Assembly: GCA_024694055.1 (NCBI GenBank)
Contig: JAILKC010000143.1
Coordinates: 1-64,000 of the forward strand
Direction: 5' to 3'
From: Lachnospiraceae bacterium
GTDB taxonomy: Bacteria > Bacillota > Clostridia > Lachnospirales > Lachnospiraceae
Length of the DNA stretch: 64,000 nt
Positions within the stretch are counted from its first letter, which is position 1. The number at the start of each line of letters is the position of its first letter. Below the pieces are notes generated by a model. That model made no database searches and had not been told where the DNA came from. It saw nothing but the letters and a program-made list of their open reading frames with translations. A program made the position numbers and the translations under genes. Positions 4,625 to 6,976 of the stretch are shown here, in pieces.

Positions 4625-4693
4625 GTATATCAGTTTATGAGCACTCAATTTTAAGAATTTTTTTATAAAAGCTGTAGAATTATAAAAAAGTAC

Positions 4694-4722
4694 TTGCGTT
4701 TCATGCGTATTGCATTTATAAT
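4694..4722 (+). promoter_or_regulatory. Strong sigma-A-type promoter driving the candidate ncRNA
   Basis: TTGCGT (4694-4699)-N17-TATAAT (4717-4722); expected start site about 4729-4731. Confidence 0.7.
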
Positions 4723-4730
4723 GTGCCCAC

Positions 4731-5016
4731 AAGAGATCAGTTGGACAATCTATACCGGAAGGAGGGTTGTTCACATCTGATCATATCAGATTGATCTGTG
4801 TTTCGGTGTACAACGGAACACATCATAAAAGTGGCATTTCGCCATGTTTTTCACATTTTTACATTTATATATATGGAATAGCCTTACAGGCAACATATCC
4901 ATATCTACAGCCTATGCGCTGTTTGTATAACGACATTTTGAGACCTTCTGTAAAGTTTTTCGACAAATTATTTCGCAGTTGGGTTAAAAATTCTTAGTAT
5001 GTCTGACTGATCTCTT
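4731..5016 (+). ncRNA. Candidate structured non-coding RNA, family unassigned
   Basis: 5' arm AAGAGATCAGTTGGACA (4731-4747) pairs over 17 uninterrupted positions (two G-U) with TGTCTGACTGATCTCTT (5000-5016); internal hairpins at 4775-4791, 4797-4822, 4831-4845, 4871-4904 and 4907-4922; promoter correctly placed upstream; no convincing ORF. Confidence 0.6.
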
Positions 5017-5230
5017 AATATATTTATCGGCTGGTTCAGTACTTTTTTGAAGATGAATTATATATCACGATAACCTTTTGGTCTCGATGTGAAGGCCATA
5101 CTAAATGAAGAAAAAGAAAGGATTATAAAGCGAGGTACCCCCAAGTACTAATAATATGAAAAAGTAATGACTATGCAGATAAAAACTGATATAATAGGGC
5201 AGTCTAAGTGATTTGAAAGGAAGTATATAA

Positions 5231-6976
5231 TTGAAAAAGATCATTCCGGCGATCATTGCGATTGCCCTTATTATCATTATACTGGCGGTGGCAGGGGGAT
5301 CCACGCTGTTTTCTAAATTTTCATACAGCAACGAGCACAGAGATCTTAAGGATTATTATAATCTGACGGCTGAGAACGAAGTTGCGATAGTATTACAGGA
5401 CGAGATCCTTGACATAAAAGGCAGACTTGCAGAGGGACAGGTATACTTAAGTTATAAGGATATATGTTCGCTTCTTACCGACAGGTTTTATGTGGATGAG
5501 AATGACGGTCTGCTGATCTACGCGATGGCAGATGGCCTTCGCATCAACAGAATAGGAGAAAAGGGATATTATCCGAGTGCATCGGTGTCATTCACCGGGG
5601 CGGGAGGAGACGGTGTACCCGTATATGAGATAGACGGGGAATTCACTGATACGACTTATCCGGTGACTTTGGAGAAGGACGGGCAGCTCTATATTGCGCT
5701 TGAATATGTAAAAGATTTTGCAGATTTTTCATATGAACTGTTTACAGGGCCGAACCGCATACAGCTTAGGACTGAGTGGGGCAGCAAAAAGGTCGTTACG
5801 GTTAAGAAAGACAGCGCCGTCAGATACCAGGGAGGTGTCAAGAGCGATATCTTAAGAGAAGTGAAAGACGGAGAGGAACTGACCGTTTTGGAGGAACTCG
5901 AAGAATGGGACAAGGTCAAGACTTCGGATGCTCTTATAGGATATATAGAGAAAAAGCATGTATCTGGAATTAAAGATGAATCTGAGCAGGCTGTTACAAC
6001 CCGTATAGCGGATGAATACACAAGGATACAGAAGAACTATAAGATCAACATGGCATGGCATGCAATATATGCCACCTCGGGTAACGATACATTCGATGAT
6101 GCCGTAAATGGAACGGGTACAATGAGTATAATAGCGCCCACATGGTTTTCAATATCTTCCAATGATGGAACATACAGGAGCTTCGCAAGTGCAAGTTATG
6201 TAAACAAAGCGCATGAGCGCAACATGGAAGTATGGGCAGTACTTGATAATTTTAATGCCGGAGAGATAAGTACATATGAAGTGATGTCTTACTTGGGCAA
6301 GCGTCAGATTCTTATAAAGAACCTTATGAGTGAGATTACCGACTACGGAATAGACGGAATCAATCTGGACTTCGAACTGGTTCCCTCCGAGGCAGTTCCC
6401 CATTATGTGGAATTCATAAGAGAATTATCCATTGAGTGCCGCAGGGCAGGAATTGTTCTGTCGGTAGACAATTATCCTCCGCAGGGCGGTAATGATTACA
6501 ATCTGAAGGAGCAAGGGATCTGTGCGGATTATGTGGTTATAATGAGTTACGACGAGCATTGGGGCAGCGGTGGCGTGGCCGGAAGTGTTGCGTCCATAGG
6601 TTTCGTGGAGCAGGCCATTCAGATGGTATTAAGTGATGTCAGTGCGGACAAGATCATCAATGGTATTCCTTTCTATACCAGAGTTTGGAAGTCCAAGGGC
6701 GGTGATGTTACCAGTGAAGCGCTTGGAATGGGACAGGCTAAAGATTTTATCGCCAAATATGATGTATCGACCGTATGGGACGAGGAAACGTGTCAGAATT
6801 ACGGCGAAAAGGAAATGAACGGTACACTGTATCAGATCTGGCTTGAGGATGAAGAATCAATAGGAACCAAGCTTAATATAATGAAGAAATACGGTGTCGC
6901 GGGTGTGGCCGAATGGCAGCTCGGTATGGAAGATAAGGCGATATGGAGTACCATAGACACCTTTGTTAAAAACTGA
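5231..6976 (+). CDS. Glycoside hydrolase family 18 protein with SH3 domain, membrane-anchored or secreted
   Basis: N-terminal TM, SH3 segment AVRYQGGVKSDILREVKDGEELTVLEELEEWDKVKTSDALIGYIEKKHV, GH18 active-site motif DGINLDFE; TTG start. Confidence 0.92.
   Translation: MKKIIPAIIAIALIIIILAVAGGSTLFSKFSYSNEHRDLKDYYNLTAENEVAIVLQDEILDIKGRLAEGQVYLSYKDICSLLTDRFYVDENDGLLIYAMADGLRINRIGEKGYYPSASVSFTGAGGDGVPVYEIDGEFTDTTYPVTLEKDGQLYIALEYVKDFADFSYELFTGPNRIQLRTEWGSKKVVTVKKDSAVRYQGGVKSDILREVKDGEELTVLEELEEWDKVKTSDALIGYIEKKHVSGIKDESEQAVTTRIADEYTRIQKNYKINMAWHAIYATSGNDTFDDAVNGTGTMSIIAPTWFSISSNDGTYRSFASASYVNKAHERNMEVWAVLDNFNAGEISTYEVMSYLGKRQILIKNLMSEITDYGIDGINLDFELVPSEAVPHYVEFIRELSIECRRAGIVLSVDNYPPQGGNDYNLKEQGICADYVVIMSYDEHWGSGGVAGSVASIGFVEQAIQMVLSDVSADKIINGIPFYTRVWKSKGGDVTSEALGMGQAKDFIAKYDVSTVWDEETCQNYGEKEMNGTLYQIWLEDEESIGTKLNIMKKYGVAGVAEWQLGMEDKAIWSTIDTFVKN

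Follow-up and report, generated by a model that had tools for sequence, protein, structure and literature searches.

A covarying RNA element behind a conserved promoter, a candidate autonomous RNA gene upstream of GH18 in Lachnospiraceae

Comparison with homologous loci shows that the forward strand of the window, as we call the whole 64,000-nt stretch of DNA analysed, carries an RNA element that is conserved and covaries, with a promoter of its own that is likewise conserved, a long closing helix around several hairpins, and conserved single-stranded motifs. The host is a rumen Lachnospiraceae bacterium, the genome assembly of which is incomplete. We consider the element both real and new, because its position is retained in dozens of relatives, its mutations there compensate one another, and no catalogue match was obtained. 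In our reading it is an autonomous structured RNA gene of ~353 nt here, running from about position 4729 to at least 5081, which would belong to an uncatalogued Lachnospiraceae RNA family and act in trans, and we put the chance that this whole reading holds at about even. The original prediction, made from the letters of the window, was a novel structured non-coding RNA of ~286 nt with its own promoter. Its novelty, structure and promoter are supported by the negative Rfam searches and by the conservation of promoter, helix and hairpins, whereas its 3′ end at 5016 has to be moved, as the conserved unit reaches at least 5081. That first reading had overlooked the 3′ pseudoknot strand, the association with GH18 in place of mecA, and the small open reading frame (ORF) that follows in relatives.

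The element would represent a new, large RNA family, supported by covariation and not included in Rfam 15, in common gut and rumen bacteria whose RNAs have received little study. Expression, pseudoknot and function are directly testable, since Kineothrix alysoides, Eisenbergiella tayi and Lachnospiraceae bacterium 28-4 are carriers in culture.

Promoter, fold and terminal helix

A sigma-A type promoter, TTGCGT-N17-TATAAT, can be read directly from the sequence at 4694–4722 on the plus strand, with TTGCGT at 4694–4699, a spacer of 17 nt and TATAAT at 4717–4722, exactly as first proposed, and across 54 homologous sequences the TTG and TATAAT columns were invariant or at least 90% conserved. An 11-bp inverted repeat, AAAAAAGTACT and AGTACTTTTTT at 4684–4694 and 5038–5048 of the window, flanks most of the RNA.

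The region 4725–5030 folded with an energy of −86 kcal/mol, whereas its dinucleotide-shuffled versions gave −61.4 ± 5.1 (z −4.88; 0/100), and the span 4729–5081 folded with −93.2 (z −4.55). The five internal hairpins of the original prediction all lie on the plus strand where it had placed them, and all are part of the minimum-energy fold. The first, ATCTGA-TCATA-TCAGAT at 4775–4791, keeps its stem in congeners, and the second, TGTGTTTC-N10-GGAACACA at 4797–4822, has a homologous hairpin with other stem sequences in seven related loci (L009–L014 and L027). The stem of the third, GTGGC-ATTTC-GCCAT at 4831–4845, reads GGC/GCC, GACC/GGUC, GGUU/AACC or GGGUG/CACCC in congeners. The fourth, ATATGGA..GCCTTACAGGC..TCCATAT at 4871–4904, contains a conserved (U/C)CUUACAG element, and the fifth is ACAGC-CTATGC-GCTGT at 4907–4922. 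In more distant members, the central GUCUUACAGGC hairpin module had a compensatory change at one of its six pairs, from G-C to A-U, among eight sequences. The third hairpin is followed by GTTTTT and is terminator-like (4831–4851 in all); with its five T it resembles an intrinsic terminator, and a short isoform of ~120 nt could arise there.

RNAalifold on sequence-only alignments yielded little because the fast-changing stems were not aligned by MAFFT, and alignment-free tests of own versus swapped strands were therefore used. The helix that closes the predicted structure, P1a, pairs the 5′ strand AAGAGATCAGTTGGACA (4731–4747) with the 3′ strand TGTCTGACTGATCTCTT (5000–5016) through 17 uninterrupted pairs, including two G-U pairs, in full agreement with the original description. 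Beyond a 4-nt bulge, a second short helix, P1b, formed by AUAC at 4752–4755 and GUAU at 4997–5000, is stacked inside P1a, with U5000 common to both helices. In the minimum-energy fold, the inner end of P1a (GGACA) takes an alternative pairing in a local hairpin, GGACAAUCU/AGGGUUGUUC, over which the comparison across relatives favours P1a together with P1b. The strand-swap test used 22 representatives, one per similarity cluster, with the 3′ strands permuted among species in 2000 permutations. The mean duplex energy of P1a was −20.4 for own strands and −13.9 ± 0.67 for permuted strands, a difference reached in 0/2000 permutations, and for P1b the own and permuted values were 5.12 and 4.75 ± 0.11, again 0/2000. 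The forms that P1b takes in relatives include GUAUC/GAUAC, GUGCC/GGCAC, GUACC/GGUAC, GCACG/CGUGC and GCGCC/GGCGC. Compensatory change, which the original prediction had proposed to look for among homologs, was thus found in both parts of the terminal helix across these 22 representatives.

Homologous loci and the predicted pseudoknot

At least 11 further genomes of the genus have homologs with promoter and fold. A DNA search gave partial matches in five congeners, and a mecA-anchored search recovered syntenic homologs that share the promoter and the 5′ strand in ten (G002, G003, G004, G005, G007, G010, G012, G016, G017 and G018), as well as one in G009, here with a small ORF. An HMM built from ten of these homologs detected further, weaker ones in the same position in Eisenbergiella and in many other members of the Lachnospiraceae. 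Four pieces are conserved, namely the promoter, a 5′ strand that approximates GAGAUGCUUCCGGAUAAUCnGUAUCGGAAGGAGG, the central GUCUUACAGGC hairpin and a tail of the form UAUAUCAC-N(2-30)-CUUUUGG; both conserved ends are present in 50 distinct full-length loci, with unit lengths of 294–499 nt. The collection of homologs envisaged at the outset has accordingly yielded Lachnospiraceae loci upstream of GH18 in which promoter, terminal helix and hairpins are kept.

Genomes were searched with a 97-position sequence model that covers the promoter and 5′ domain and misses diverged members. At this limited sensitivity, the model gave 20 matches at E <1e-6 among 250 Lachnospiraceae genomes, corresponding to about one in twelve genera (~20/249). 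Among 116 sampled genomes of the order, matches at E ≤ 1e-5 were confined to the window's own genome and one other (G041), both of the same family, and the 5′-domain model found no homolog in the sampled sister families. A family-wide pattern search for the tail was noisy.

The tail at the 3′ end of the RNA, UAUAUCAC...CCUUUUGG, is near-invariant. In the window it comprises the element TATATCAC at 5061–5068, itself near-invariant and found at the corresponding position of most loci, and the conserved strand CCTTTTGG/CCUUUUGG at 5074–5081, which lies outside P1. A purine strand, CCGGAAGGAGGG at 4755–4766, is conserved in the alignment and resembles a Shine-Dalgarno (SD) sequence (AAGGAGG). The tail strand CCUUUUGG at 5074–5081 is fully complementary, with G-U allowed, to CCGGAAGG at 4755–4762, giving eight contiguous pairs. 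The longest uninterrupted helix that purine strand and tail can form averaged 7.7 pairs over 50 homologs, whereas other 10-mers taken from these RNAs averaged 4.0, and helices of at least six pairs were found in 44 of the 50 against a background frequency of 0.11. The pairing was equally strong without the small ORF (8.1) as with it (7.4). Because the changes are mostly one-sided rather than double compensatory, the support consists of strong complementarity and not of full covariation. Taking these observations together, a pseudoknot with CCGGAAGG as its 5′ strand and CCUUUUGG as its 3′ strand is strongly suggested by the sequences compared, and the position of the tail outside P1 would give it an H-type topology adjoining P1b.

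Neighbouring genes and proposed mode of action

The constant downstream neighbour of the RNA is a gene for a GH18-family protein (SH3_3 and Glyco_hydro_18 by Pfam; 5231–6976, plus strand), present on the same strand in 20 of 20 strong genome-search matches and also at the pflA locus. On the other side, mecA (Pfam PF05389; 3744–4565, minus strand) is usually, though not always, the divergent neighbour, as in 18 of the 20 strong matches; one exception (L115) ends at a contig edge, and in the other (L126, genome G098) mecA is ~11 kb away. Four arrangements exist in one genus, namely mecA-RNA-GH18 (the window), mecA-RNA-ORF-GH18 (G009), pflA-RNA-ORF-GH18 (G001, G013 and G015) and pflA-GH18 without RNA and without ORF (G006, G008, G011 and G019). 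The RNA therefore travels with GH18 and the ORF and not with mecA, the ORF is not required by the RNA, and the RNA is dispensable for the retention of GH18. The same genus thereby offers natural knock-outs, with RNA without ORF, RNA with ORF, and neither. At seven loci (L156, L157, L158, L172, L174, L175 and L177), GH18, with or without RNA and ORF, lies 3′ of a pyruvate formate-lyase activating enzyme-like gene that takes the place of mecA. At the pflA-side GH18 loci, either the module was relocated or mecA was separated from it.

The RNA invariably precedes GH18 on one strand, also at loci to which the module has been relocated; this counts against an autonomous RNA, as does the interval between the RNA and the downstream gene, which held almost no clear intrinsic terminators across loci, a lack unusual for a stand-alone sRNA. 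The main rival to our reading, favoured by this constant same-strand neighbour and the lacking terminators, is a very long leader of the riboswitch or antitermination kind that would regulate the small ORF and/or GH18 in cis, and in which the pseudoknot between the purine strand and CUUUUGG would switch expression, a tentative possibility that we rate below even. It draws further on the small ORF of ~70 aa, which half of the 50 loci carry on the same strand, with its start 30–100 nt past the RNA tail (directly 3′ of it in loci including L046, L053, L064, L087, L096 and L104), probably on the same transcript as the RNA. In L054, L087, L096 and L104, moreover, CUUUU could also pair with the ORF's own SD, AAAAGG. 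However, the ORF is absent from about half of the loci while RNA and pseudoknot are intact, GH18 is retained where the RNA is lost, an expression platform common to all loci was not seen, and 350–440 nt is very large for a riboswitch.

GH18 itself, 108–680 nt away, also has its own promoter, which counts against such a leader. In the window this separate, conserved promoter is ATGACT-N17-TATAAT at 5167–5195 (plus strand), and a promoter of the type TAATGACG...TGNTATAAT stands upstream of GH18 in most loci. Its core is unusually conserved across Lachnospiraceae, which suggests a site for a shared regulator. In ORF-less loci, the stretch from the RNA tail to the GH18 promoter contains a small C-rich-loop hairpin (GUAC-CCCCAA-GUAC; UAGA-CCCC-UCUA) or a AGACCCCC motif, at 5130–5155 in the window and likewise in four relatives (L044, L051, L065 and L070).

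An autonomous, trans-acting RNA is our preferred reading because promoter, helices and pseudoknot are equally kept without the ORF and GH18 has a promoter of its own. Since RNA, promoter and pseudoknot persist without the ORF, and GH18 survives without the RNA in four congeners, the function would be that of the RNA itself. The folded RNA may act in trans, probably via a protein or ribosome partner, and the pseudoknot would mask or expose its SD-like AAGGAGG strand. A more specific proposal, which we consider unlikely, is a new class of large pseudoknotted RNA with a perfect SD-like strand, AAGGAGG, masked by its own tail, which under some condition would sequester 30S subunits or an RNA-binding partner and would ancestrally have been encoded with a ~70-aa partner.

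The ~70-aa protein is conserved across distant loci, with the consensus LYLEGKxSSPEEIA...YMPDFVTDExGKLxEVRYDxVK, and constitutes a previously unannotated protein family, with no relative in Pfam, NCBIfam, PHROG or PDB. Its AlphaFold model is alpha/beta with a pLDDT of 82 and gave no convincing fold match. We regard as quite improbable a dual-function or protein-associated RNA, that is, an ancestral RNA with this ~70-aa protein as its partner, the protein having been lost in the window's lineage. The conservation of the protein in distant loci, directly 3′ of the RNA tail wherever this was examined, and the joint absence of protein and RNA from congeners G006, G008, G011 and G019 would fit such a pair, but no RNA-binding family or fold was recognised in the protein, and the RNA persists without it in many lineages. 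No copy of the ORF was found in the window's genome, incomplete as the assembly is, or in most congeners.

It is highly improbable that the region has no RNA function and is instead a DNA regulatory region for mecA and GH18 or an unannotated protein gene. Although it is intergenic, lies between divergent promoters and contains a 76-aa ORF in the window (an open frame ending at 4997), its helices covary and its fold z-scores (given above) speak for structure. Protein-coding constraint, raised in the original prediction as a reason for doubt, was not seen, as the congeners have no conserved reading frame, and the 76-aa coding frame was rejected because no frame is common to them across the region.

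Comparison with known RNA families

Searching Rfam, as the original prediction had proposed, matched no family to the RNA. At gathering level, cmscan of the window returned only one tRNA, elsewhere in the window, and with E up to 10 only five chance-level matches fell around the RNA region. The loci of 20 relatives gave no Rfam match at gathering level, nor did the two best-conserved relatives (L093 and L055) at E ≤ 1. In the literature we found no paper describing the RNA, and an unnamed fragment of it may be among the thousands of human-microbiome candidates of PMC8040213. In appearance, it is a large structured Bacillota RNA that belongs to none of the tested families. That it is a known kind of RNA in strongly diverged form (raiA/ModT, 6S or SRP RNA) seems to us scarcely credible, as the general resemblance to raiA/ModT in own promoter, many helices, pseudoknots and partial synteny (PMC11706538) is set against the lack of a useful Rfam match, 6S-like matches elsewhere in five congeners and a separate SRP RNA in the window's genome (C78:3944-4231), by which an SRP identity was rejected.

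6S RNA (RF00013) likewise has a terminal helix, a sigma-A promoter and a length of a few hundred nt, but it is rod-like with a central bubble, whereas the RNA described here has no central bubble and no RF00013 match and is branched in its minimum-energy fold, a contrast with the 6S rod already drawn in the original prediction. Because a 6S-like match lies on a different contig, besides the new RNA, in five congeners (G009, G012, G016, G017 and G018), the new RNA is not their 6S RNA. Riboswitches and other cis-regulatory leaders likewise have a fixed downstream gene on their own strand and may have a pseudoknot with an SD-like strand; by contrast, the RNA here often lacks the ORF, stands before a GH18 gene with a promoter of its own, showed no common expression platform and is unusually long.

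OLE RNA keeps constant gene neighbours. OLE, ROOL and GOLLD RNAs are likewise large and branched (structures in PMC12286853) but differ from the RNA here in their motifs and context, and no Rfam match links them to it.

The original prediction had named raiA as a family to which the RNA might distantly belong, which found no support, since no raiA match appeared in the region up to E 10. The relatives L093 and L055 gave none up to E 1, and a search of 20 congeners with RF03072 was also without a match, the control genomes being equally silent. The raiA motif RNA, or ModT (RF03072), is likewise a structured Bacillota RNA with its own promoter, several helices and pseudoknots, and neighbours that are preferred rather than strict (PMC11706538). 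It differs in having no sequence or covariance-model match here, in an Rfam model of 209 positions compared with ~350–440 nt here, and in its association with raiA or comFC, whereas the RNA described here has mecA (or pflA) and GH18 as neighbours and was found only in Lachnospiraceae. Despite its preferred neighbours, the ModT/raiA RNA is trans-acting (PMC11706538).
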